Source: Candidatus Nanopelagicales bacterium (lineage in GTDB: Bacteria > Actinomycetota > Actinomycetes > S36-B12 > CAIYMF01). Taken from it: DNA of 40,061 nt. Each line of letters starts with the position of its first letter. Position 1 is the first letter of the stretch. The stretch is from the NCBI GenBank assembly GCA_017882705.1, contig JADGOZ010000124.1:1-40061 (forward strand), written 5' to 3'. This document shows positions 7,682 through 24,857 of this stretch, piece by piece. Below the pieces are notes generated by a model. That model saw nothing but the letters and a program-made list of their open reading frames with translations, had not been told where the DNA came from and did not search any database. The position numbers were made by a program, and so were the translations under genes.

Positions 7682-8542
7682 TCACGTGCCGAGCGTGGTC
7701 GCCACCCGGGCGAGCACCTCGAGCCGCGCGTCGATGGTCGGGTGGGTGTCGTCGGGGCGGCCGAATCCCCGGTCGCCCGGCGGGACGAAGCCGACGGCGA
7801 TCGCACGTCGCAGGTCCTCGCTGCGGATCGGCGCGGTGGGCACGGAGCACGCCTCGATCGCCGCTGCCATGGACGACGGCCGACCGGTGAGCAGCGCGGC
7901 CGCCCGGTCGGCGGCGTGCTCGCGCTGGCGCAGGAGGGACCGCACCGAGCGCAGGACGTAGACCGACACGAACGCCGGTGCCTTGCGGTCCGCCGTGTCG
8001 GCGATCCGCTCGAGCACGCGCAGCAGCGCGGTGTCGCCGTGGGCGACGTGGAAGAGCTCGTGCGCGAGCACCGCCTCGAGCTGGTCGTCGGGCAGCTCGT
8101 ACGCCGCGTGCCGCGAGAGGTAGATCGTGACCGGCTGGCCCGGGCCCTCGCTGACGAACGCGTTGCGCATCGGCAGGTCGATGAGCGCGAGCCGCGGTCG
8201 CGGCACGTCGCCGAGCGAGCAGAGCCGGGTCAGCATCTGCACGAACCGGCTGTCGTCCGGGAGCAGCTCTGCGCCGTGGACCCGCCGTGCGACCACGCGC
8301 ACCCGCCGGAACGCCGTCACGGCGGCGAGCAGGCCGACCAGGACCAGCGCCCCGACCGCCCACCAGTGGCCCCACTCCCACGCGGCATGGAGCCCGACGG
8401 CGCCCTTGATCCCGACGAGCACGGCGTAGGAGACGAAGATCGCGCCGACCGTGGCGAGCACGGCGAAGCCGACCCGGAGCACGGCGACGCGCGTCGCGCG
8501 CGTCAGTGCCCGGTCGTCGCCGTAGCGGCTCTGCATCCCCAT
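7682..8542 (-). CDS. M48-family membrane metalloprotease (HtpX-like paralogue)
   Basis: 286 residues with two N-terminal membrane helices (about 20-45 and 60-78), the zinc motif HELFH (His161, Glu162, His165) and the third ligand in QREHAADR (Glu208). M48/HtpX proteases degrade damaged membrane proteins at the cytoplasmic face. Overall layout matches the HtpX gene at 9503-10402 but sequence identity is modest, so it is an old paralogue or a separate subfamily rather than a recent copy. ATG 8542 is preferred over ATG 8536 because TACCGT (8549-8554, minus strand) sits six bases before it, a leaderless-type promoter. Its downstream partner is pspAB (14 bp away), tying it to the PspA system. Confidence 0.9.
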   Translation of the reverse strand: MGMQSRYGDDRALTRATRVAVLRVGFAVLATVGAIFVSYAVLVGIKGAVGLHAAWEWGHWWAVGALVLVGLLAAVTAFRRVRVVARRVHGAELLPDDSRFVQMLTRLCSLGDVPRPRLALIDLPMRNAFVSEGPGQPVTIYLSRHAAYELPDDQLEAVLAHELFHVAHGDTALLRVLERIADTADRKAPAFVSVYVLRSVRSLLRQREHAADRAAALLTGRPSSMAAAIEACSVPTAPIRSEDLRRAIAVGFVPPGDRGFGRPDDTHPTIDARLEVLARVATTLGT

Positions 8543-8548
8543 GCGCCG

Positions 8549-8554
8549 ACGGTA
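8549..8554 (-). promoter_or_regulatory. -10 hexamer TACCGT for the M48 protease/pspAB operon
   Basis: On the minus strand TACCGT is followed by six bases (CGGCGC) and ATG 8542. This leaderless geometry decides the start. Confidence 0.5.
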
Positions 8555-8694
8555 CGCCGGGTCCGCCGACCCTCACGAGGTTCCGCTCGACGCGACACCA
8601 GGCGAGAGGCAGCAGAAGACTCGAGGCGAGGTCGGGCCCCGGGGTTCGGTTGCGGATCCTGCGGGCGTGCCCACGCTCGAAGGAGGCGTAGGTC

Positions 8695-13657: not shown

Positions 13658-15040
13658 TCAGGCGGACCTGGGCGCGGGTCCGGCGACGAGCGAGCCGGAG
13701 TACATCCCCATGACGCACGTGAAGGCGAAGGTCTGCCCGGCAGCGACGGCCGGCATGGTGATCGTGTTCTCGCCGGTCTTGAGGTTGAACTTCCAGTCCG
13801 AGCCCACCGCGCGCAGGTACGACGCGCAGGTGTACTCCGACTCGGAGCTGATCACCCAGGTGATCGGGACGCCGGCGTAGACCACGGTGGAGTCGGGCTG
13901 GTAGCCGCGCGCGGTCTGGTCCATCCGGACCACCTGCACACCGTTGCCCAGGGTCACGTTGGCCGAGACGCCGGTGGCCGTGACGGCCGCCGCCCTGGGG
14001 CTGGTGAGCCCGAGAAGGCCCGCGGCCGACGACAGGTTGACGACCGCGAACACCATGAGCGCGACGCCGACGACGGCGAGGACCTTGGTACGGCGCTCGC
14101 CGGAGGCGAACATCGGCAGTCCGGCCAGCGCGAGGAGCCCCGGCATGGTGCCGATCGCGAAGACGGCCATGACGGTGCCCGCGGCGAGCGGCGATCCGGT
14201 GGTCATCGCATAGAGCTGCACGATCTGGGTGAAGCCGCAGGGAAGGATGAAGGTGGCGGCACCGAGGGCCGCGGCCCGCCAGTCGGCGTACGGCTTCGAG
14301 GAGTCGGCGTGCACCGAGCGCGACCACGACTCCGGCAGCGCGAGCGACCACCCGGCCATCCGCGGCGAGAGCCCGGTGAGGCGCAGCCCGAGCAGCGCCA
14401 TGGCCACGCCGATGACGACGATGAACAGGGCCTGCACGGAGTCGGGCAGCGAGAACCGCGCGCCGATCGCGCCGAGGACGGCACCGAGCACGAAGAAGCC
14501 CACGACCCGTCCGGCATGGAACGCCAGGTGCGGGCGCCAGCGCCCGACCGCGGGCACGTCCCCCTCGACCTCACGGCTCGCGGACACCGCGAGGACCAGG
14601 CCCCCGACGAGGGCCATGCAGGTCGAGACGCCCGCGGTGAGACCGAGCACGAGCACGAGGAGCAGCCCGCCGGATCCGGGATCGCCGAGCCGCGAGCCGA
14701 GGTCGCCCACCCCGACGACGAAGAGCAGCCACGCGGCGACGCCGACGACGGCGGCCGCGATCAGCGCTGCGCGCCAGACCCTCGCGTCGCCGGTGAACCA
14801 CGGGGCACGGCCCACCGAGTAGCCGGCGCCCTCGACGGCCACCGTCAGCTCGGCCCAGGGCACGTCGCCCTCGACCGTGAGGGTGGCGAGCCCGGCGCGG
14901 GCCGACACGGACGCGGACTCGACGCCGTCGACCCCGGTGAGGGCCTTGGTGACGCGGCGCTCGCACGCGGCGCAGGTCATGCCGGTGATGGGCAGCCGCA
15001 CGCGCAGCAGGTCCGCGGTGCCGTTGTCGTGAGCGCTCAA
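13658..15040 (-). CDS. HMA domain - UreH/DsbD-like transporter - cupredoxin fusion
   Basis: 460 residues in three parts. Residues about 12-75 are a heavy-metal-associated domain with the metal motif MTCAAC (Cys23, Cys26). Residues about 90-345 are six or seven membrane helices of the sulfite exporter TauE / UreH_2 type, with a conserved Cys in FILPCGFTQIVQLYAM. Residues about 360-455 form a cupredoxin-like extracellular domain with possible copper ligands in SEYTCASYLR and FTCVMGMYSG (Cys, Met). The whole suggests movement or handling of copper across the membrane. Start is a TTG at 15040 in a G-rich context. It stands alone, convergent to the 71-aa gene and divergent from the cobalamin operon. 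Confidence 0.85.
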   Translation of the reverse strand: MSAHDNGTADLLRVRLPITGMTCAACERRVTKALTGVDGVESASVSARAGLATLTVEGDVPWAELTVAVEGAGYSVGRAPWFTGDARVWRAALIAAAVVGVAAWLLFVVGVGDLGSRLGDPGSGGLLLVLVLGLTAGVSTCMALVGGLVLAVSASREVEGDVPAVGRWRPHLAFHAGRVVGFFVLGAVLGAIGARFSLPDSVQALFIVVIGVAMALLGLRLTGLSPRMAGWSLALPESWSRSVHADSSKPYADWRAAALGAATFILPCGFTQIVQLYAMTTGSPLAAGTVMAVFAIGTMPGLLALAGLPMFASGERRTKVLAVVGVALMVFAVVNLSSAAGLLGLTSPRAAAVTATGVSANVTLGNGVQVVRMDQTARGYQPDSTVVYAGVPITWVISSESEYTCASYLRAVGSDWKFNLKTGENTITMPAVAAGQTFAFTCVMGMYSGSLVAGPAPRSA

Positions 15041-15227: not shown

Positions 15228-15345
15228 CTTCACATCACGCGTCTGACGTCCAGGGGAAGCCGGTCCGATTCCGGCGCTGACCCGCAACCGTAGGCCGTTC
15301 CTCGGAACGGCGAGCCGGAGCACCTGGTGGGCGCGAGAGGCTCAC
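15228..15345 (+). promoter_or_regulatory. Cobalamin (B12) riboswitch aptamer
   Basis: Core elements in order: GGGGAAGCCGGT (15253-15264), a hairpin closing with ATTCCGGC, then CTGACCCGCAACCGTAGGC, matching the conserved GCxACTGTAxG-type segment in its actinobacterial variant, then the B12 box GAGCCGGAGCACCTGGTGG (15312-15330). The element faces a gene set for corrinoid transport and assembly, the classic target of such repression. Ends are approximate, since the P1 closing stem was not folded computationally. Binding of adenosylcobalamin would turn the operon off. Confidence 0.88.
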
Positions 15346-15397
15346 CCCGTCGAGGTCTACGGAACGAGCCCGGACCGTGCCCCGGTCCGCACTCTCG

Positions 15398-15439
15398 CCC
15401 CTCGGCCAGGTCCCCACGGACCACAGGTTCGAGGGGTTT
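15398..15439 (+). terminator. Riboswitch expression platform, terminator-like hairpin
   Basis: Arms CCCCTCG (15398-15404) and CGAGGGG (15430-15436) enclose an inner hairpin GGTCC-CCAC-GGACC (15409-15422), followed by TTT. A separate stem, GCGAGAG (15333-15339) with CTCTCGC (15392-15398), encloses the hairpin CGGACCG/CGGTCCG (15371-15389) and shares base 15398 with the terminator stem. The two could be mutually exclusive folds that link ligand binding to termination. Confidence 0.55.
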
Positions 15440-15501
15440 CGTCCGTCTCCGGGGAGCTGTCCGGCCACGTGGTCGGCAGACCGCTCCTCGAAAGGACCCC
15501 C

Positions 15502-16863
15502 GTGGTCTATCTCCACCGCCCGAGCTCCCGCCGTCGGCTCACCACCGCACTGACGGCGTCCTGCGCAGCCGCGCTCGCCGTCGGTGCCGCGATCGTCCCG
15601 TCGGGCGCGGCCTCGGCCGCCACGGCACCGGTGCAGGCCGGTCTGTTCGGAGCCCAGGACCCGACGTACGACGGCGTCTTCCGCCAGTCGCTCGCGCTGC
15701 TGGCCTACTCCGCCGCCGGCACCACGCCGCCACCCTCCGCCGTGACCTGGCTGCTCGACCAGCAGTGCGCCGACGGCGGCTTCCAGGCCTTCCGCGCCAG
15801 CACCGCGTCCGCCTGCCAGAAGTCCGACCCGGCGACCTACTCCGGCGAGGACACCAACTCCACAGGCATCGCCGAGGCCGCCCTGCGGGCGATCGGCCGG
15901 ACGGCTGCGGCCGACACGGCGCTGGCCTGGGTGCTCGCCGCGCAGCGCAGCGACGGCGGCTTCCCCTATTTCGTCGGCGGCGACTCCGACGCCAACTCGA
16001 CGGCCGTCGTCCTCCTCGGGACGAACACCGCCGGACGCACGCCCGACTCGGTCCAGAACGGTGGGGTCTCCGCGGCGCACTTCCTCGAGTCGCTGCTGAT
16101 CGGCTGCGAGGGTGCCGCGACAGGCGACGACGGCGGCTTCGCCTTCCAGAGCTACGGCGGACCGCTCGTCGACAGCGACGCGGCCGCCGTGCAGGCCACG
16201 CTGGCGCTCTCCGGCGTCGGTCTCCCGGTGACCGCTGGGACGGTCGCGACCGACGTGCCGCGGGCCACCTGCCCGTCGTCGACCGGCCCGGCCCTCACGC
16301 CCGCACAGCTCGGCGCGGGCCATCTCGCCCGGTTGATCGACGCGTTCGACGCCGTGCCGCAGTTCGACTTCGCCACCGGCAGCCGCGTCCCGCACAGCGT
16401 CTCCGCGGGCGACACCGCCTGGGCCGTCCTCTCGCTCGCCGCGGTCGGGGTCGGCCGCGCGCAGCTCGACACCGCGCTCGCGGCGGTCCGGGCGCAGCCG
16501 CTCAAGGCCGCCTCGGTCCACGCGACCGGCACCGCGAGCACGTCCGCGGCGAAGGCCACCGACCAGCCGGGGCTGCTCGCCCTCGCGGCGCTCGCCACGA
16601 GCGCGGCCGGAGGCGGCACCTCCGCCGTCAAGGCCTACGTCGCCCGCATCGGCGCGACGATCCGGGTCGCGCCCGCGCCCGCGTCGCCGACGCCGCCGGC
16701 CTCCGCGTCCCCCAGCGCGTCGGCGACGTCCGACAACGCCGCGCCGCTCGCGCAGTCCGGCCCGACGCCGCTCACGCCCGCGCTCGGCACCGTCGGCGGC
16801 CTCCTGGTGCTCCTCGGGATCGGCGCAGTCGCCGCCACCCGTCGGCGAGGTGCGCACGCATGA
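15502..16863 (+). CDS. Secreted prenyltransferase/squalene-cyclase-fold protein under B12 riboswitch
   Basis: 453 residues from GTG 15502, chosen because AAAGGA lies five bases before it. A signal peptide (RRRLTTALTASCAAALAVG, ending near ASAA) is followed by an alpha/alpha-toroid of the prenyltransferase/squalene oxidase repeat type: DGGF units near residues 92, 151 and 210, each followed by a D-x-x-STA or D-x-AAA helix segment (EDTNSTGIAEAAL, SDANSTAVVLL, VDSDAAAVQATLAL). Catalytic terpene-cyclase motifs are not seen. A Pro/Ala/Ser linker, then one membrane helix and RRRGAHA tail anchor it outside the cell; no LPXTG. It heads the cobalamin operon, so a role in binding a corrinoid outside the membrane is proposed. 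Its stop overlaps the next ATG. Confidence 0.85.
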   Translation: MVYLHRPSSRRRLTTALTASCAAALAVGAAIVPSGAASAATAPVQAGLFGAQDPTYDGVFRQSLALLAYSAAGTTPPPSAVTWLLDQQCADGGFQAFRASTASACQKSDPATYSGEDTNSTGIAEAALRAIGRTAAADTALAWVLAAQRSDGGFPYFVGGDSDANSTAVVLLGTNTAGRTPDSVQNGGVSAAHFLESLLIGCEGAATGDDGGFAFQSYGGPLVDSDAAAVQATLALSGVGLPVTAGTVATDVPRATCPSSTGPALTPAQLGAGHLARLIDAFDAVPQFDFATGSRVPHSVSAGDTAWAVLSLAAVGVGRAQLDTALAAVRAQPLKAASVHATGTASTSAAKATDQPGLLALAALATSAAGGGTSAVKAYVARIGATIRVAPAPASPTPPASASPSASATSDNAAPLAQSGPTPLTPALGTVGGLLVLLGIGAVAATRRRGAHA

Positions 16864-17807
16864 CGTCCCCACGCCGCACCTCGACCACCGCGCAGCGCGT
16901 CGCGGCGGTCGTCGTCGGCGTGCTCGTCTCCGTGCCGCTCGCACTCGTGGCCCTGCTCGCGACCGCCGCCCCTGCCCAGGCCTCGACGTACCGCTACTGG
17001 ACCTACTGGTGGGGCGCCGGCAGCGGGTCGAGCTCCACCGCGTGGACGTTCGCGAAGGTCGGCCCCGCCGGGCACGCCGTCGGCGACACCTGGGTGCTGG
17101 GCTGGCGGTTCGCGACGTCACGGTCGACGACGGGCTCGGCGCGACCCCGGCAGAGCCCCGACTTCGCCACCCTCTGCCCGCACCTGGCCCCGGTCGCCGG
17201 ATCGGTGCGCGTCGCGCTCGTGATCGACTACGGCACCGCCGCCGACGCCCCGCCCGGGCAGCAGCCGCCCATGACGACCTCGGTTCGGGTCGAGTGCGTG
17301 ACGATCGCCGGGCAGCCGCGCGGCTCGGACGTATTGCGCGACGTGTCGCCGCCGGTCTCCGTACGCAGCGAGAACGGGCTGATCTGCGCTCTCGACGGCT
17401 ACCCCCGCGGCGAGTGCGCCCCGGTCGTCCCCGACCCGACGCCGACGCCGACCCCTACCGCCGCGAAGCCACGCACGACGGCGACGGCCGGCGCCGCGGG
17501 CGCACCGACGGCGCGGGCGCTCGCGGGCCCGCTCGCGGCGCAGGCACCGTCGAGCCCGACCGCGCTCCCCCCGACCGGTGCCGCTGCCGCGTCGTCCTCG
17601 GCCGCGGCAGCCGCCCCGTCGCCCACGGCGTCGTCCGGATCGGCCTCCGCGGACCCGGGCGAGCCGGTCCTGCCCGCGGTCGCGGGCGCCCCGACCTCGG
17701 ACGCGCAGGGCAGCGGCAGTCCCGTCGGGCTCGTCGTCGGGGGCGCGGTCGTCGCGGCGATCGCCGGCTCGGCGTGGTGGACCTCGCGTCGCCGGAGGCT
17801 CGGATGA
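16860..17807 (+). CDS. SCO2322-like secreted anchored protein
   Basis: 315 residues. A signal peptide (membrane stretch about 14-38, cleavage near AQA) precedes a compact extracellular domain of about 150 residues beginning STYRYWTYWWGAG and containing TAWTFAKVGP, GDTWVLGWRFA and cysteines in ATLCPHL, RVECVTI, GLICAL and GECAPV (possible disulfides). Next come a long Pro/Thr/Ala linker (about 195-285), a membrane helix and a basic tail (SRRRRLG). The pattern fits the actinobacterial SCO2322 family, found beside the same ECF transporter in Streptomyces. ATG 16860 overlaps the preceding stop and its own stop overlaps the next ATG (ATGA both times). The family's function is not established. Confidence 0.82.
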   Translation: MTSPRRTSTTAQRVAAVVVGVLVSVPLALVALLATAAPAQASTYRYWTYWWGAGSGSSSTAWTFAKVGPAGHAVGDTWVLGWRFATSRSTTGSARPRQSPDFATLCPHLAPVAGSVRVALVIDYGTAADAPPGQQPPMTTSVRVECVTIAGQPRGSDVLRDVSPPVSVRSENGLICALDGYPRGECAPVVPDPTPTPTPTAAKPRTTATAGAAGAPTARALAGPLAAQAPSSPTALPPTGAAAASSSAAAAAPSPTASSGSASADPGEPVLPAVAGAPTSDAQGSGSPVGLVVGGAVVAAIAGSAWWTSRRRRLG

Positions 17808-18964
17808 GCCGGCGCACCGCGCACGCCCTCGGCGACGGCGCCATCCCCCGCTGGCTCCACCCCGGGGCGTGGTGGGTGTGGGCCCTCGGGCTCGCCACCG
17901 CGGCGAGCCGTACGACGTCGCCGATCGTCCTCGCGCTGATCGTCGCGGTCGCCGGCTGGGTCGTCTCGCGACGCCGGCCCGACGCGCCATGGTCGCGGTC
18001 GTACTCCGTCTTCCTGCGCGTCGGCCTCGTCGTCATCGCGATCCGCGTCGCGTTCACGGTGGTCCTCGGGGCGGGCATCGGCGCGCACGTGCTCGTCACG
18101 CTGCCCGAGATCCCGCTGCCCGAGTGGATGGCGGGCGTGAGCATCGGCGGCCCGGTCACCGCGGAGGAGCTCCTGCTCTCGGTCTACCTCGGCCTGGTGC
18201 TCGCCACGATGCTCGCCTGCATCGGTGCGGCCAACTCCCTCGCGAGCCCGGCACGGCTGCTGGCCAGCGTGCCCGCGGCGCTCTACGAGGTCGGCGTCGC
18301 CGTCGTCGTGGCGATGACCTTCGCCCCGCAGCTCGTCGGCGACGTCGCGCGCGTGCGCACCGCGCGACGGCTGCGCGGCCGCTCGGACCGCGGCGTGCGA
18401 GCGTTCGTCGGGTCCGTCATGCCCGTGCTCGAGGGTGCCCTCGAGCGGGCGGTCGACCTCGCGGCCGCGATGGACTCGCGCGGCTACGGACGGACCGGAC
18501 CGGTGGCCCCGCGGGTACGCCGTACCGGCTCGGCGCTCCTGCTGCTCGGCGTCGTCGGCACGTGCGTGGGCGTCTACGCGCTGCTCGACGGCGGGACGCC
18601 CGGGTCGGTCGCGCTGCCGCTCCTCGTGCTCGGGCTCGCCGCAGGTCTGCTGGGCATGCGGCTGGCCGGACGCCGCGCGATCCGCACCCGCTACCGCCCC
18701 GACCCGTGGGCGCTGCCCGAGTGGCTGGTCTCGCTGTCCGGCGTGGTGCCGGCGGTGACGCTCGTCGTCATGTCCGTGCTCGACCCCGACGTGCTGGTCG
18801 GCCAGACCGCGCCGCTGACGTGGCCGGGGCTGCCCGTGATCCCGGTGCTCGCGGTGGCGTTCGCCGCGCTGGCCGGTGTCGTGGCTCCCCGGCCGCCGGG
18901 GACCGCGGCGGTCCGGGACGTCGCACCCGCACGTCGTCGCGAGCTGGAGGAGGTGGCCGCGTGA
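17804..18964 (+). CDS. ECF transporter T component (CbiQ/EcfT family)
   Basis: 386 residues, a membrane protein with about five core helices plus extra C-terminal ones, longer than a typical EcfT (about 265). The cytoplasmic coupling motifs of T components are visible, notably the S-R-G element in AMDSRGYGR near residue 226, preceded by RTARRLRGRS; these helices contact the ATPases. The start ATG 17804 lies inside the preceding stop (ATGA) and its stop lies inside the GTG of the ATPase gene (GTGA). As part of an energy-coupling factor module it links ATP hydrolysis to the S subunit. Length and C-terminal extension (hydrophobic 290-370) are unusual. Confidence 0.88.
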   Translation: MSRRTAHALGDGAIPRWLHPGAWWVWALGLATAASRTTSPIVLALIVAVAGWVVSRRRPDAPWSRSYSVFLRVGLVVIAIRVAFTVVLGAGIGAHVLVTLPEIPLPEWMAGVSIGGPVTAEELLLSVYLGLVLATMLACIGAANSLASPARLLASVPAALYEVGVAVVVAMTFAPQLVGDVARVRTARRLRGRSDRGVRAFVGSVMPVLEGALERAVDLAAAMDSRGYGRTGPVAPRVRRTGSALLLLGVVGTCVGVYALLDGGTPGSVALPLLVLGLAAGLLGMRLAGRRAIRTRYRPDPWALPEWLVSLSGVVPAVTLVVMSVLDPDVLVGQTAPLTWPGLPVIPVLAVAFAALAGVVAPRPPGTAAVRDVAPARRRELEEVAA

Positions 18965-20592
18965 TCCGGTTCGAGGACGTCTCCGTCACCTACGACGGCG
19001 CCGTCGCACCCGTGCTGTCGCACGTCGACCTGCACGTGCCCGAGGGTGAGCTCGTGCTGGTCGTCGGTCGCACCGGCACCGGCAAGTCGACCCTGCTGCG
19101 CTGCGTCAACGGCCTCGTGCCGCACTTCACCGGGGGCACGCTCTCCGGACGCGTCACCGTCGCCGGACGCGACACGCGGTGGCATCCCCCGCGCGAGCTC
19201 GCCGACGTCGTCGGGATCGTGCCGCAGGACCCGCTGTCGGGGTTCGTCACCGACATGGTCGAGGACGAGCTGGCCTACGGCATGGAGTCGATCGGCCTCG
19301 CGCCCGACGTCATGCGCCGGCGGGTCGAGGAGACCCTCGACCTGCTCGGCCTCGCCGACCTGCGCCACCGCCCGCTCCTCTCGCTGTCCGGCGGCCAGCG
19401 CCAGCGCGTCGCGATCGGCGCCGTGCTCACGACGCACCCGAAGGTCCTCGTGCTCGACGAGCCGACCTCGGCGCTGGATCCCGGTGCGGCAGAAGAGGTT
19501 CTGGCCGCACTGCAGCGGCTCGTGCACGACCTCGGCGTGACCGTGCTGCTCGCCGAGCACCGGCTCGAGCGCGTCGTGCAGTACGCCGACCGGGTCGTCG
19601 TCGTGCCCGGCGACGGCGCGCCACTGGTCGTCGGCAGCCCGGCCGACGTCATGGTCTCGGCTCCCGTGGCTCCGCCCGTCGTGGAGCTCGGCCGCCTCGC
19701 GGGCTGGTCGCCGCTTCCTCTCACCGTGCGCGACGCGCGCCGGGCGGCCGGGCCGCTGCGCGAGCGTCTCGCGCCGCTCGTCGACGAGGCCGCACGACGC
19801 TCGCGTTCGACCCTGCACGTCGTCGACGGCGACCCCGCGCTGTCGACGAGCGACCTCGTCGTGCGCCACGGCTCGGTGCCGGCGCTGCGCGGCGTGACGC
19901 TCACCGCCGACCGGGGAGAGATCGTCGCCGTGATGGGACGCAACGGCGCCGGCAAGTCGACGCTGCTCTCCACGCTGATCGGGCTGCACGTGCCGCACAG
20001 CGGCTCGGCCGCCGTCGGAGGCGCCGTCCCTGCGACGCTGCGCGGCCGTGAGCTCGTGCGACGTGTCGGCCTCGTGCCTCAGGAGCCCACCGACCTGCTC
20101 GTCGCGGACCGGGTCGGCGAGGAGTGCGCGTCGAGCGATCGCGACTGCGGCGTCGCGGCGGGCACCACCCGGGCGATGCTGGACCGGCTCGCTCCGGGCA
20201 TCGACGACGGCACGCACCCGCGCGACCTGTCCGAGGGGCAGCGCCTCGCCCTCGCTCTCTCGGTCGTCCTGGCCGCCCGACCGCCCGTGCTGCTTCTCGA
20301 CGAGCCGACCCGCGGCCTGGACTACTCCGCCAAGCAGCGTCTCGTCACCACGCTGCGCGAGCTCGCCGCGACCGGGCACTGCGTGCTGCTGGCGACGCAC
20401 GACGTCGAGCTCGCGGCCGAGGTCGCGACCCGGGTCGTCGTCCTCGCCGACGGCGAGGTCGTCGCCGACGGCCCCGCCACCGACGTGGTGGTCGGCTCGC
20501 CGATGTTCGCGCCCCAGGTGAGCAAGGTGCTCTCGCCGCAGCCGTGGCTCACCGTGTCCGAGGTGGCCGCCGCCCTGGTCGCCGCGTCGTGA
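18961..20592 (+). CDS. ECF transporter fused A/A' double ATPase
   Basis: 543 residues holding two ABC ATPase domains in one chain. Domain 1 (about 1-240): Walker A GRTGTGKST (36-44), Q-loop VPQDP, signature LSGGQRQR, Walker B VLVLDEPTSALD, switch His in LAEHRLER. Domain 2 (about 290-525): Walker A GRNGAGKST (326-334), VPQEP, a degenerate signature LSEGQRLALALS, Walker B VLLLDEPTRGLD and switch His in ATHDVEL. The fusion replaces the separate EcfA and EcfA' subunits. GTG 18961 overlaps the T-component stop. The E in place of the second G of the LSGGQ signature is typical of many second domains and may make one ATP site less active. Confidence 0.92.
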   Translation: MIRFEDVSVTYDGAVAPVLSHVDLHVPEGELVLVVGRTGTGKSTLLRCVNGLVPHFTGGTLSGRVTVAGRDTRWHPPRELADVVGIVPQDPLSGFVTDMVEDELAYGMESIGLAPDVMRRRVEETLDLLGLADLRHRPLLSLSGGQRQRVAIGAVLTTHPKVLVLDEPTSALDPGAAEEVLAALQRLVHDLGVTVLLAEHRLERVVQYADRVVVVPGDGAPLVVGSPADVMVSAPVAPPVVELGRLAGWSPLPLTVRDARRAAGPLRERLAPLVDEAARRSRSTLHVVDGDPALSTSDLVVRHGSVPALRGVTLTADRGEIVAVMGRNGAGKSTLLSTLIGLHVPHSGSAAVGGAVPATLRGRELVRRVGLVPQEPTDLLVADRVGEECASSDRDCGVAAGTTRAMLDRLAPGIDDGTHPRDLSEGQRLALALSVVLAARPPVLLLDEPTRGLDYSAKQRLVTTLRELAATGHCVLLATHDVELAAEVATRVVVLADGEVVADGPATDVVVGSPMFAPQVSKVLSPQPWLTVSEVAAALVAAS

Positions 20593-20602
20593 GGGGCGCC
20601 TC

Positions 20603-21502
20603 GTGACCGCCGTCGTCGGCACGCACGCCACGATAGGCACGCCGGAGCCGCGGCCGGCCGCCGCGCGGCCGCGCACGGTCCGCCTCGGTCGTCGCACCGG
20701 CGCGCTCGTCGCGATCGCGAGCGCGATCGCCGTGATGGCGTTCCTGTGGCCCCTGCTTGCTGCGTCCGGGTCGGTCGTCGTCGCGCACTCCACGGACGCC
20801 CCCTGGCTGTTCGCCGTGGTGCTGCCGCTCGTGATCGCGGTCGTCCTGGCCGACGTCGCCGACGGCGGCCTCGACGCCAAGGGCGTCGCGCTGCTCGGCG
20901 TGCTGGCCGCCGCCGCCGCCGCGATGCGCCCGTTCGGGTCCGGGCACGCAGGATTCGAGCCGATGTGGATCGTGGTGATCCTCGGCGGACGCGCCCTCGG
21001 TCCGGGTTTCGGCTTCTGCCTCGGGTCGATCGGGATGTTCTCCTCGGCGCTCGTGACCGGCGGGGTCGGCCCCTGGCTGCCGTTCCAGATGATCGGCGCC
21101 GCGTGGATCGGCCTCGGCGCCGGGCTGCTCCCGAGGGCCTCCGGGCGTCGGGAGATCGGGCTGCTGGCGGCGTACTCCGCGGTGGTGTGCGTCGCTTACG
21201 GCTTCCTGCTCAACCTGTGGTTCTGGCCGTTCCTCACCGCCGACGAGGGCTTCCCGCCGGAACTGTCCTACGTGCCCGGTGCCCCGCTCACCACGAACCT
21301 GGCGCACTGGCTGCGCTTCGACGTCGCGACCTCGCTCGGCTTCGACCTCCCGCGCGCCGTCCTCACGGTCGTGCTCGTGCTGGTCGCCGGGCGGGCGGTG
21401 CTCGTCGCGCTACGTCGCGCGTCGCGGCGGGCGGCGTTCGAGACGCCGGTCGTGTTCGCTCCGAACAGCCTCTCCCCCACGGGATCCGACGGGTCGAGCT
21501 GA
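20603..21502 (+). CDS. ECF transporter S component, probable corrinoid type
   Basis: 299 residues: a cytoplasmic N-terminal tail of about 33 residues rich in Arg/Pro, then six predicted membrane helices between about 34 and 265 and a cytoplasmic tail. Wording in the middle (RPFGSGHAGFEPMWIVVILGG and RALGPGFGFCLGSIGMF) is that of actinobacterial substrate-binding S subunits. Start GTG 20603 with GAGGGG six bases upstream. Specificity is inferred from the riboswitch and the flanking CobU/T/S genes: cobalamin, cobinamide or a precursor such as dimethylbenzimidazole or cobalt. It is not of the CbiM type, which argues somewhat against cobalt. Its stop overlaps the next ATG (TGATG). Confidence 0.85.
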   Translation: MTAVVGTHATIGTPEPRPAAARPRTVRLGRRTGALVAIASAIAVMAFLWPLLAASGSVVVAHSTDAPWLFAVVLPLVIAVVLADVADGGLDAKGVALLGVLAAAAAAMRPFGSGHAGFEPMWIVVILGGRALGPGFGFCLGSIGMFSSALVTGGVGPWLPFQMIGAAWIGLGAGLLPRASGRREIGLLAAYSAVVCVAYGFLLNLWFWPFLTADEGFPPELSYVPGAPLTTNLAHWLRFDVATSLGFDLPRAVLTVVLVLVAGRAVLVALRRASRRAAFETPVVFAPNSLSPTGSDGSS

Positions 21503-22881
21503 TGGACGTCCTGCTGCTCGGTACCGGCTCGGCCGACGGCTGGCCGAACCCGTGGTGCCGCTGCGCGTCATGCACGTGGGCGCGGGAGAGCGGCACGCTG
21601 CGCTCCACGACGTCGGCCCTCGTCGACGGCGTCCTGCTGCTCGACTGCGGCCCGGACGCGCCGCGCCAGGCCGACCGCGCCGGCGTGAGCCTGGCCGACG
21701 TGAGCTGCCTGCTGCTCACCCACGCGCACCCCGACCACCTCGCGCCCGAGGCGCTGCTGTCCCGGTCGTGGGCAGGCGGCACGACGACGTTGCGCGTCCT
21801 CGGGCCTCGGTCGGCGATCGACGCGTGCCGCGACTGGGTCGGCCCGCACGACCCGATCACCCTCGAGGTCGTCGAGCCCGGTGACGTGGTCGACATCGAC
21901 GACGGGTATGTCGTGCGCCCGCTCGCAGCGGCGCACGACGTCGGTCGTGACGAGCTGACCCGGGACGCACTGCTCTACGACGTGACCGCGCCCGACGGCC
22001 GTCGCCTGCTGCACGCGACCGACACGGGGCCGATCGGCGCGGCCACCCTGACGGCCGTGAGCGGAGCGGCGTACGACGTGGTGCTGCTCGAGGAGTCGTT
22101 CGGCACCAAGGCCGACCACGGCACCGGGCACCTCGACCTCACGACGTTCCCCGTCCAGCTGGCCGCGTTGCGCGAGGTCGGCGCGGTCGTCGACGGCACC
22201 GACGTGGTGGCCGTGCACCTCAGCCACCACAACCCGCGGGAGCTCGCGCGGATCCTCGAGCCGTGGGGTGCCCGCGTCGTCGACGACCTCACGGTGCTCT
22301 CCACCGACGGTCCGCGCGTCCCCGCGTCGCGGCCGCGCCGGCAGCTCGTGCTCGGCGGCACACGGTCGGGCAAGTCGCACGAGGCGGAGAGCCGCCTGCT
22401 CGCGCACGCGTCCGTCACCTACGTCGCGACCGGGGGCGAGCGCGCTGACGACCCGGAGTGGCGGGCGCGCGTCGCCGCGCACCGCGACCGCCGGCCGTCA
22501 GCATGGCGCACGGTCGAGACCCTCGACGTCGCAAGCCTTCTCACCGCCACGACGAGCGACTGCGCGGTCCTCGTCGACTGCGTCGCGCTCTGGCTCGCCG
22601 GCCGCCTCGACACCGCGCGCACGTGGGCCGCCGAGCCCGGGACCCCCGCCTACGACGAGTCCCTCGCGGCCGTCGCCCGCGACTGCGACCGGCTCGTCGC
22701 CGCAGTGGCCTCCACGACCTCGCACGTGGTCCTCGTGAGCAACGAGGTCGGCAGCGGCGTGGTGCCCGAGCACGCGTCAGGGCGCCTCTACCGCGACCTG
22801 CTCGGCGTCCTCAACCGACGGCTCGCGGCGGTGTGCGACGACGTGGACCTCGTCGTCGCCGGCCGCGTGCTCCGCCTGTGA
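21502..22881 (+). CDS. cobU: Metallo-beta-lactamase domain fused to CobU
   Basis: 459 residues. Residues about 1-265 are a metallo-beta-lactamase-fold hydrolase: a possible structural zinc site Cys19-x-Cys21-x2-Cys24, the HAHPDH motif (His74, His76, Asp78, His79), then His in GTGHLDL and HLSHHNP. The opening recalls PhnP/PqqB-like phosphodiesterases. Residues about 280-459 are CobU, which phosphorylates adenosylcobinamide and attaches GMP: P-loop GGTRSGKS (285-292), VTYVATGG, DDPEWRARVAAHRDRRP and VLVSNEVGSGVVPE. ATG 21502 overlaps the S-component stop by one base, so transport and assembly are coupled. The fused hydrolase may act on a nucleotide-loop intermediate; this is inference. Confidence 0.9.
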   Translation: MDVLLLGTGSADGWPNPWCRCASCTWARESGTLRSTTSALVDGVLLLDCGPDAPRQADRAGVSLADVSCLLLTHAHPDHLAPEALLSRSWAGGTTTLRVLGPRSAIDACRDWVGPHDPITLEVVEPGDVVDIDDGYVVRPLAAAHDVGRDELTRDALLYDVTAPDGRRLLHATDTGPIGAATLTAVSGAAYDVVLLEESFGTKADHGTGHLDLTTFPVQLAALREVGAVVDGTDVVAVHLSHHNPRELARILEPWGARVVDDLTVLSTDGPRVPASRPRRQLVLGGTRSGKSHEAESRLLAHASVTYVATGGERADDPEWRARVAAHRDRRPSAWRTVETLDVASLLTATTSDCAVLVDCVALWLAGRLDTARTWAAEPGTPAYDESLAAVARDCDRLVAAVASTTSHVVLVSNEVGSGVVPEHASGRLYRDLLGVLNRRLAAVCDDVDLVVAGRVLRL

Positions 22882-22950: not shown

Positions 22951-24039
22951 GTGACCGACGCCCTCGACCTCGCCGACCTCGTCGAGCGCATCGGGCTGCC
23001 CGACGCCGACGCGCACGCCGCGGGCGCCGCGCGCCAGGCCCGGCTCACCAAGCCCGCGGGCGCCCTCGGCCGGCTCGAGGAGCTCTCGCTGTGGCTCTGC
23101 TCGGTGCAGGGCGCCTGCCCGCCGAGGCCGCTCGACCGCGTGCGCGTCGTCCTGTTCGCGGGCGACCACGGCGTGGCGCGCACCGCGGCGACGAGCGCCT
23201 ACCCGCCCGAGGTCACCGCGCAGATGGTCCTCAACTTCCTCGCCGGCGGCGCCGCGGTGAACGTCCTCGCGAGGCAGAACGGTGCGAGCGTGCGCGTCGT
23301 CGACATGGCGGTCGACGCCGACTACGCCGAACTCGGCGCCGCCGTCCCCGACGACGTCACCCGCTATCGCGTACGCCGCTCCAGCGGGTCCATCGACCGC
23401 GAGGACGCGCTGACCCGCGAGCAGGCGGAGGAGGCGTTCCGCGCGGGGCTGCGCATCGCCGACGAGGAGGTCGACTCGGGCGCGGACCTCCTCATCCCGG
23501 GCGACATGGGGATCGGCAGCACGACGCCGTCGGCCGTGCTCGTCGGGCTGCTGTGCGGCATCGACCCCGCGCGCGTGGTCGGTCGCGGCACGGGCATCGA
23601 CGACGACACCTGGATGCGCAAGACGGCCGCGGTCCGTGACGCGATGCGCCGCGGCCGACCGCTGAAGGGCGACTCGATCGGGCTGCTCGCCGCCGTCGGC
23701 GGCGCGGACCTCGCGGCCACCACCGGGTTCCTCCTCGGTGCGGCCGCGCGGCGCACTCCGGTGCTGCTCGACGGCGTGGTCTCGTGCGCCGCCGCTCTGG
23801 TGGCGCACCGCATCGCGTTCCGGTCACGCGCGTGGTGGCTCGCCGGCACCCGCTCGACCGAGCCCGCCCAGCGCGCGGCGCTCGAGCGGCTCGACCTCGA
23901 CCCGATCGTCGACTACGGCCTCCGGCTCGGCGAGGGCACCGGGGCCCTCGTCGCGCTCCCGATCCTCGCCGCCGCCGGGTCGACCCTGCGCGAGATGGCG
24001 ACGTTCGACGAGGCCGGCGTCTCGGACCGCGAGAGCTGA
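22951..24039 (+). CDS. cobT: Nicotinate-nucleotide-dimethylbenzimidazole phosphoribosyltransferase
   Basis: 362 residues; makes alpha-ribazole 5'-phosphate from nicotinate mononucleotide and dimethylbenzimidazole, activating the lower ligand of B12. Motifs: [48 protein letters not shown], and near the C-terminus LGEGTGA with the catalytic Glu328. Start GTG 22951 with AGGAG eight bases upstream. It lies 69 bp after the CobU fusion, the only sizeable gap in the operon, and its stop overlaps the cobS start (TGATG). Normal length for the family. Confidence 0.96.
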
Positions 24040-24857
24040 TGCCCGACTCGCTGCGCCTCGCGCTCGGGACGCTCACGGCGGTCCGCGTGCCGGCGCCGCG
24101 CGTCGTCGACCGGAGGGTCGCCGGGCGCGCGATGCTGCTGGCGCCACTGGTCGGGGCACTGCTCGGCCTGGCCGCGGCGCTGGTGCTCGGCGTAGTCGGG
24201 CTGACGTCGGGCGAGGCGCGGACGCCCTCGGCGTTCGATCTGCTCGGCGCGCTGCTCGCGATCACGACGCTCGCGTGGCTCACCCGTGGCCTGCACCTCG
24301 ACGGGCTCGCCGACACCGTCGACGGGCTCGGGGTGAAGGGCCAGCACGACAGCGTGCGCGAGCGGCGGCTCGCGGTGATGCGCGAGCCCGAGGTCGGGGC
24401 CTTCGGGGTGGTCGCGATCGTGCTCGTGCTCGGGCTGCAGACCGTGGCGCTCACGGTGTGCGCGCTCGAGGGGTCCGGCACGGCGGGCGTCGTCGTGGCC
24501 GCCGCCGTCGGGCGGCTCGCGGCGACCTGGGCGTGCATCCCGGCGTACGCCTCGGCCCGCTCCGACGGGCTCGGCGCCGCGGTCGCCGGCAGCGTCGGGC
24601 GCACCGCCGCGGTGGCGATGACCCTCGCTGTGCTCGCCGGCACCGTGGTGCTCGGCGGCCTCGACGACGCGTCCCGGTCGCGGCAGGTCGTGCTCGTGGT
24701 CGGCGTGCTCGCGGGCCTGCTCGGCAGCACCGCCCTGCTGCGCCGCTGCGTCGCGCGGTTCGGCGGGATCACCGGCGACGTGCTCGGCGCGGTGGTCGAG
24801 GTGACGACGACGGTCGTGCTGGTCGTCGTCGCGCTGGGGCTCGGCCTGACCCGCTGA
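24039..24857 (+). CDS. cobS: Adenosylcobinamide-GDP ribazoletransferase (cobalamin synthase)
   Basis: 272 residues, an integral membrane enzyme that joins adenosylcobinamide-GDP with alpha-ribazole (phosphate) to complete the nucleotide loop. The metal-binding motif RGLHLDGLADTVDGLG is present around residues 84-100, followed by RRLAVMREPEVGAFGV, and GGITGDVLGA near the C-terminus. Several membrane helices fill the rest. ATG 24039 is read through TGATG from cobT. The product, cobalamin 5'-phosphate if alpha-ribazole phosphate is used, needs a phosphatase; no CobC is visible in the window. Confidence 0.94.
   Translation: MPDSLRLALGTLTAVRVPAPRVVDRRVAGRAMLLAPLVGALLGLAAALVLGVVGLTSGEARTPSAFDLLGALLAITTLAWLTRGLHLDGLADTVDGLGVKGQHDSVRERRLAVMREPEVGAFGVVAIVLVLGLQTVALTVCALEGSGTAGVVVAAAVGRLAATWACIPAYASARSDGLGAAVAGSVGRTAAVAMTLAVLAGTVVLGGLDDASRSRQVVLVVGVLAGLLGSTALLRRCVARFGGITGDVLGAVVEVTTTVVLVVVALGLGLTR

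Follow-up and report, generated by a model that had tools for sequence, protein, structure and literature searches.

The window analysed here, a stretch of 40,061 nucleotides from a Candidatus Nanopelagicales bacterium (contig JADGOZ010000124.1 of assembly GCA_017882705.1), carries on its plus strand a riboswitch-preceded operon whose first two genes encode predicted exported proteins, which we call A and B, and whose next three encode an energy-coupling factor (ECF) transporter. The cobalamin (B12) riboswitch aptamer (RF00174, 15227-15345) scores 33.1 bits against a gathering threshold of 31.5 and is the sole gathering-level Rfam match in the window; a pattern for the riboswitch core, with up to three mismatches allowed, also matches once, against 0.01 matches expected. 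Behind it lie A, a SCO2321-like protein (15502-16863), B, a SCO2322-family protein (16860-17807), the transmembrane subunit EcfT of the CbiQ family (17804-18964; PF02361, 32.3 bits against a cut-off of 25), a double EcfA ATPase with two ABC domains in one chain (18961-20592; PF00005 over two stretches, E 1.3e-51) and an S subunit predicted to be corrinoid-specific (20603-21502; PF12822, 36.4 bits against a cut-off of 30.7). EcfT, EcfA/A' and S are thus encoded together, all above their Pfam cut-offs, and make up an ECF transporter with a dedicated module. A preliminary description, made from the sequence before any database search, had claimed a B12 riboswitch, two secreted proteins and ECF T, double A and S subunits, with genes overlapping by 1-4 bases or lying about 10 bases apart. 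Rfam, Pfam and hydropathy bear this out, the overlaps A/B, B/EcfT and EcfT/EcfA being 4, 4 and 4 bases and the EcfA-S gap 10 bases.

The operon extends past S. A gene overlapping S by 1 base encodes an MBL-fold domain fused to CobU, the cobinamide kinase/guanylyltransferase (21502-22881; PF12706 and PF02283); its MBL part has a weak likeness to PhnP. It is followed by the phosphoribosyltransferase CobT (DBI_PRT, 22951-24039; PF02277, E 8.6e-125) and the cobalamin-5-phosphate synthase CobS (24039-24857, with an ATG at 24039; PF02654, E 2.3e-42 on 24036-24854). Since the operon includes CobU, CobT and CobS, uptake is presumably coupled to assembly of the nucleotide loop.

Protein A is, as far as its sequence can tell, an alpha/alpha toroid. 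The Pfam families Prenyltrans and SQHop_cyclase_C match all 57 aligned members of its family, the window protein included (E <= 1; best 2.6e-11), and six segments of A can be aligned with the toroid of its relatives by segment comparison. The window protein on its own matches Prenyltrans weakly (16 bits, under the cut-off of 26.5) and scores 191.4 bits with the NCBIfam family SCO2321_fam (NF053823), under the 300-bit cut-off. Cobalamin_bind (PF01122) was not listed for it and appeared for one of the 57 members, at E 0.037. When a profile of A was compared with PDB sequences, the best matches were squalene-hopene cyclases, and transcobalamin is absent from the 38 matches listed. DxDD is the cyclase motif of squalene-hopene and terpene cyclases; it is absent from window A and present in one of 76 relatives, there within a linker; the preliminary description had likewise noted no catalytic terpene motifs in A. 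Four cysteines (89, 105, 202 and 257) are conserved in at least 56 of the 57 members, and A therefore fits an exported, disulphide-bonded protein. In both A and B, a hydropathy rule marks a hydrophobic stretch at the N terminus and a transmembrane-like one at the C terminus.

Protein B looks like a homologue of DUF4430, the C-terminal domain of transcobalamin. It scores 130.1 bits with the NCBIfam family SCO2322_fam (NF040672), above the 85-bit cut-off, and its AlphaFold2 model contains a confidently predicted domain (ten-residue mean pLDDT of 77-98 across residues 41-200) with strands at 43-52, 78-87, 115-123 and 142-150, a helix at 155-161 and a hairpin at 168-178. Pfam returns no family for window B at E <= 10, so the gathering cut-off of PF14478 (DUF4430) is not reached; for the remaining B proteins, the Pfam check covers the 25 families shown of 35. 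In a profile-profile comparison with hhalign, the part of B after residue ~110 aligned with the first half of DUF4430 (30 sequences) with a score of 40.8, which none of 150 column shuffles reached (maximum 16.2). Other DUF4430 sets aligned at the same place more weakly, with scores of 30.9 (17 sequences), 32.9 (12 full proteins, 24% probability) and 34.6 (20 domains, 66% probability). Twelve B relatives whose halves are naturally in the other order aligned with DUF4430 over 103 columns, with a score reached by none of 100 shuffles; these sequences came from 11 loci and were trimmed by hand, and some had only one half at E < 0.001.

PMC4350170 names the C-terminal part of TCN proteins DUF4430, and a DUF4430-type domain forms the C-terminal half of animal transcobalamins according to the portions of PMC4350170 and PMC1796856 on which we rely. 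Our own search agrees in direction: a profile of 20 actinobacterial DUF4430 domains against 177,635 PDB sequences gave seven rows, with 3u7z best (E 1.3e-4), followed among others by transcobalamin-1 (0.01), ThiS (0.33), transcobalamin-2 (0.81) and two more. A SUI1 homologue in the same rows (E 0.0092) was taken as a chance match. Taken alone, this link between DUF4430 and transcobalamin in the PDB is weak. A profile of the full DUF4430 proteins gave five rows, best E 0.094 and none related, whereas the domain alone listed the transcobalamins. Sequences of B whose halves had been swapped by hand retrieved neither DUF4430 from Pfam nor transcobalamin from the PDB. The antibody domains that they matched in the PDB (best E 0.03) were regarded as chance, as were the uracil-DNA glycosylases found there with the profile of B (E 0.16).

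Judged from the order of their homologous segments, A and B are both circular permutants relative to their own actinobacterial relatives. Aligned with the toroids of operons that contain DUF4430, A scored 150.6 over 160 columns in its own order and 209.7 over 267 columns once rotated by 210 columns. In a 6x6 matrix of repeat segments, with borders set by eye, a shift of two repeats scored 222.9, against 104.2 for the unshifted register and 167.9 for the next cyclic shift; two pairs of segments stood out, A1-T3 (36.0; next 19.0 in its row and 26.6 in its column) and A6-T2 (45.6; next 16.7 and 18.3). Against other actinobacterial toroids, A is therefore displaced by two repeats. The N-terminal part of B, compared with DUF4430 by hhalign, gave no significant match (49/150 shuffles against the whole domain, 24/150 against its second half, 22/200 with a second set), and joining it to the C-terminal part did not clearly beat shuffled versions (11/150; 53/200). 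The permutation of B is settled instead by relatives that carry both halves in swapped order within one open reading frame (ORF), with E values of 7e-12/3e-10 in L210, 1e-9/1e-12 in L211, 2e-13/5e-15 in L212, 2e-9/3e-14 in L213 and 3e-6/2e-11 in L224. Because unswapped B sequences align with DUF4430, the elements of the transcobalamin beta domain (strand numbering as in the relevant section of PMC1796856) seem to be present in B as strands 3-4-5, then 1-2-helix-hairpin.

Profiles of the separate halves allowed this order to be read across loci. The halves of A were in window order at 80 loci and swapped at 25; those of B were in window order at 73 and swapped at 5. These proportions are uninformative, since 80 loci had been chosen for their likeness to the window. 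Where both proteins were readable, both had the window order at 73 loci and both were swapped at two, with no mixed locus; the absence of mixed loci says a little, but only two swapped loci hold both A and B. We considered a single tandem duplication followed by a deletion across A and B; it does not give the observed order, and we therefore assume two permutation events.

The arrangement around A is widely conserved. With one peptide pattern as the query, 533 places encoding relatives of A came to light among the 84,980 species of the GTDB collection, and the best 80 were kept (L061-L140); Streptomyces, Kitasatospora, Nanopelagicales and other actinobacterial titles account for most of the best 80 of the 533. 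Two metagenome-assembled loci, L066 and L075, bear the titles Acidobacteria and Rubrivirga. Among 50 loci with at least 6 kb downstream, drawn from 81 with the window included, the order A-B-T-EE-S (EE denoting the double ATPase) was found in 48, 43 of them by script and five by reading the rows, since in these five the stop-to-stop ORF of B began before that of A. Of 68 A-B pairs, 47 have genes that share 1 or 4 bases, with start codons assigned by our own rule. A riboswitch core with at most two substitutions lies less than 700 nt upstream of A, 95-250 nt before its start, in 65 of 77 loci, compared with nine matches elsewhere (2.42 Mb, both strands counted); four of the 81 loci were omitted from this count, the start of A not being placed by the motif, and two of the 77 have less than 450 nt upstream. 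Rfam recorded a gathering-level riboswitch of the cobalamin clan directly upstream of A in 10 of the 17 loci searched. The association of these elements in one operon is more than chance.

Genome surveys gave relatives of A (E <= 1e-10) in 88 of the 148 genomes from the order to which the window belongs. Among 396 genomes drawn from the phylum, SCO2321_fam matched 125 at E <= 0.001, 11 of them above the cut-off (the weaker matches may include other toroids), and SCO2322_fam matched 54, of which 13 were above the cut-off. A match to A was present in 12 of the 13 genomes with B above the cut-off, the window's own A being below the cut-off of its family. Streptomycetaceae loci (L081, L083, L096, L111, L118, L139 and others) also show a second, weak match to the A profile (35-53 bits) on the opposite strand, ~2-9 kb before A.

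Relatives outside this set rearrange and fuse the same parts. In other Actinomycetota (L171-L178, L182) the order is DUF4430-T-EE-S-toroid, a rotation of the gene order A-B-T-EE-S seen in the window, and Rfam reports cobalamin riboswitches in 9 of the 13 loci of this set that were searched. In three further loci the S subunit and the toroid form one open frame (L179:2917-4953, L180:2919-4871, L181:3553-5109; minus strand); these frames adjoin DUF4430 and cobalamin riboswitches, and Pfam confirms both domains in L180 and L181. A third group (L210, L211, L216, L223 and others) has A-B-T-EE-S as in the window, the S gene of L223 lying beyond the stretch, and 10 of 16 loci carry cobalamin riboswitches. 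In L219 (2608-4881, plus strand) a single chain of 758 residues contains a toroid (A_C 34-140, A_N 154-319) followed by DUF4430 (341-450), which is the order found in transcobalamin; its repetitive C-terminal part we take to resemble cell-wall-binding repeats. That the toroid is found fused both to DUF4430 and to S is an argument for joint action of toroid, beta domain and S subunit. Two further arrangements were seen: L216 (G204:C1:672500-684500) packs two swapped-order toroid genes, two B-like genes and three cobalamin riboswitches into 12 kb, and in L188, L189 and L190 an EcfA-like gene and a small DUF4430 protein are found next to proteins of very great length (1,537-1,846 aa) that contain several DUF4430 domains.

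By the hydropathy rule, a C-terminal transmembrane stretch is present in 66 of 67 complete B proteins and in 41 of 73 complete A proteins; among 63 A-B pairs both partners have it in 38, B only in 24, A only in one and neither in none. This pattern would fit an A-B complex held at the membrane by B where A is free. The operon itself is flanked upstream by an opposite-strand gene with HMA and DsbD_2 domains (13658-15040, minus strand) and downstream by GcvT, also on the minus strand.

The genome to which the window belongs has seven places encoding B12-binding proteins, six of them above the cut-off. A search for CobI/CbiL gave nothing above the cut-off and two weak matches, and a BtuF-family protein gave no match. 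PF05992 likewise had no match, but its model recognized two of 14 controls and may miss a mycobacterial-type BacA. The S subunit of the operon is the only match to PF12822 at E <= 0.001. The assembly is 91% complete with 4% contamination, which makes these absences provisional; with that proviso, the B12-binding proteins and the absences together are consistent with an organism that uses B12 and relies on this operon.

On the computed operon, riboswitch, homologies, permutations and fusions we base the following proposal, in which corrinoid binding, contact between A and B, hand-over to S and the range of substrates are what we infer. The operon is probably a riboswitch-controlled system for corrinoid uptake and salvage, in which A and B, both permuted, act as a two-chain clamp passing corrinoid to the ECF S subunit. 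The toroid A and the DUF4430-type beta domain B would be exported and kept at the membrane. Transcobalamin sandwiches one B12 between its toroid and its beta-grasp domain, as set out in the part of PMC1796856 concerned with this fold, and A and B should therefore jointly enclose a corrinoid in the same way. The clamp would then hand the corrinoid to S, in keeping with an account of ECF transporters in which the S subunit binds the substrate itself and carries it across (PMC6072759, in the section we draw on); EcfT and the double ATPase would power import, and CobU, CobT and CobS would complete or remake the nucleotide loop inside the cell.

The preliminary description had cast A as an extracellular corrinoid receptor for the ECF transporter. 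The riboswitch, the CobU, CobT and CobS genes, the B12-binding proteins in a genome with no CobI/CbiL above the cut-off and no BtuF match, and the toroid-S fusions speak for this idea, and a genome that lacks A, described below, speaks against it. The account was also partial: it missed that B is a likely DUF4430 homologue, that both proteins appear to be permuted and that corrinoid salvage enzymes belong to the operon.

Several observations weigh against a transcobalamin-like clamp serving the transporter. In proteoliposomes, the purified ECF-CbrT imports cobalamin as well as cobinamide, as reported in the portion of PMC5997447 consulted. The genome G062, a single contig, places the riboswitch core, B, T, EE, S and CobU consecutively (L226, G062:C1:1919000-1936000) and lacks A, none being detected in the 17 kb read or by a genome search at E <= 0.001. 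Its B gene (7691-8560, plus strand, window order) represents the only case of B without A among the 13 genomes with B above the cut-off. B can thus stand without A: either B alone suffices, or A has been lost, or a diverged toroid was missed. Conversely, L071 and L080 have A-B behind a riboswitch core and no match to EcfT, EcfA or S within 9 kb. On the side of homology, Pfam gives no DUF4430 for ten B relatives in natural order either, and the toroids of DUF4430 operons have no Cobalamin_bind match. The model of B, finally, has no solved relative (best E 3.7 with Foldseek against the PDB; nothing useful with VIA), a result that we count as no evidence either way because a sequential aligner is expected to perform poorly on a permuted domain.

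As to the ligand, it is possible, though we think it rather unlikely, that the system handles mainly cobinamide or another incomplete corrinoid rather than cobalamin, a variant compatible with the clamp. The presence of the nucleotide-loop genes CobU, CobT and CobS in the same operon points that way; on the other hand, ECF-CbrT and BtuF each accept both cobalamin and cobinamide, according to the same portion of PMC5997447.

Two alternatives concern the division of labour between A and B. The two proteins might be surface scaffolds or regulators that place or stabilise S without binding corrinoid themselves. ECF S subunits bind their own substrates, as stated in the above-mentioned section of PMC6072759, the toroid-S fusion of L179-L181 fits this idea as well, and no binding residue was identified in A or B. 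We nevertheless regard it as unlikely, since B appears to be a homologue of a domain that in animals encloses B12 jointly with a toroid (PMC1796856, same part) and since most of the variant operons have toroid and beta domain together in one stretch; in L212, L213 and L224, where B-T-EE-S occurs with no toroid in the fetched stretch, the genomes (G134, G284 and G102, respectively) have matches to A elsewhere. Alternatively, B alone might be the corrinoid receptor and A an accessory rather than half of a clamp. The operon of G062 and the near-constant anchor of B, compared with the inconstant one of A, are in line with such a role. It is quite unlikely nonetheless, given that A accompanies B in 12 of the 13 genomes and comes first in the operon, and that L219 joins the toroid to the beta domain in one chain, as L179-L181 join it to S.

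A different doubt bears on the permutation of A, which could be an artefact of register among similar repeats. Indeed, the N-terminal half of A also scores 75 against the N-terminal half of a relative, and four of the 720 free assignments of repeats exceed the cyclic shift (best 234.6). But A1-T3 and A6-T2, which fix the shift, are kept in all four of these assignments, HMMER finds both halves of A swapped in 25 loci, and the swap also occurs in B, a protein not built of repeats; we consider an artefact very unlikely.

That the transporter carries cobalt instead of corrinoid is more doubtful still. Cobalt ECF systems can be under cobalamin riboswitches, and EcfT belongs to the CbiQ family; yet S matches PF12822 with no CbiM family listed for it, no CobI/CbiL stands above the cut-off to use cobalt in ring synthesis, and the operon holds nucleotide-loop enzymes. 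Least credible of all is that A is a terpene-cyclase-like enzyme present in the operon by happenstance, for although squalene-hopene cyclases are the best PDB sequence matches of its profile, it lacks DxDD and is predicted to be exported, its gene often overlaps that of B, and in relatives it forms fusions with DUF4430 or with S.

If A and B do form a clamp, a wider proposal can be made, which we find plausible without yet calling it probable: in part of the Actinomycetota, ECF uptake would be assisted by a receptor in the form of a two-chain transcobalamin, both halves of which were permuted in the same lineage, moving chain ends and anchors so that the clamp docks on S, and SCO2321 and SCO2322 would be the bacterial counterpart of transcobalamin. 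The analysis offers a predicted function for two families that NCBIfam names by locus tag only and for which its descriptions give none. In the open-access literature we found no paper on the function of SCO2321 or SCO2322 or on this type of operon, which may have been described elsewhere; the portion of PMC9237094 that mentions SCO2321 treats it only as a hypothetical protein, whose signal sequence gave the idea for a delivery peptide, and has nothing on B12. The variants amount to a natural experiment, with separate unpermuted chains, separate permuted chains, a toroid-beta fusion, a toroid-S fusion and, in one genome, a beta domain without a toroid. They open two questions to study: by what means a receptor outside the cell supplies an ECF transporter, and for what reason a clamp would have had both its halves permuted in one lineage. 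Because the toroid precedes the beta domain in L219, as in transcobalamin, the system may also bear on the origin of the animal B12 carriers.

How does the window system compare with those already known? The preliminary description had placed corrinoid capture of this kind by Gram-positive bacteria outside the standard picture of ECF transport. This calls for correction: transcobalamin-like domains and toroids in operons with CbiO/CbiQ were proposed as bacterial B12 scavengers in 2007 (Burroughs et al., PMC1796856), the one paper found in the open-access literature to put forward this idea. In the passages of that paper concerned with them, the transcobalamin clade is reported from low-GC Gram-positives, planctomycetes and, less often, euryarchaea, toroid-SLBB fusions are described, and the bacteria proposed to scavenge B12 in this way are said usually to be without key synthesis enzymes. 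The window shares with those proteins a predicted extracellular toroid, a transcobalamin-type beta-grasp domain, CbiQ/CbiO genes and a proposed role in scavenging. Unlike the fusions described there, it has two genes, belongs to a high-GC actinobacterium, encodes two proteins that both appear permuted and comes with an identified cobalamin riboswitch and S subunit; the string 'permut' is absent from the main text of that paper. The 2007 proposal is thus extended to high-GC actinobacteria, and what appears undescribed is the two-gene version found there, the permutation of both its proteins and a probable role of the SCO2321 and SCO2322 families.

Compared with ECF-CbrT of Lactobacillus delbrueckii (PMC5997447), the window is likewise predicted to encode an ECF-type transporter for corrinoids. 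By contrast with it, the window operon has two predicted extracellular capture proteins, of a kind not described for CbrT in the portion of that paper referred to above, and a one-chain double ATPase. Like animal transcobalamin, intrinsic factor and haptocorrin, the system seems to combine a toroid and a DUF4430-type domain as two parts. The animal carriers are single chains with the toroid preceding the beta domain, whereas the window has two permuted chains, and the likeness is weak and runs through DUF4430 intermediates only. The window system would thus work like transcobalamin, from putatively homologous halves, yet stand outside that family by its chain architecture.

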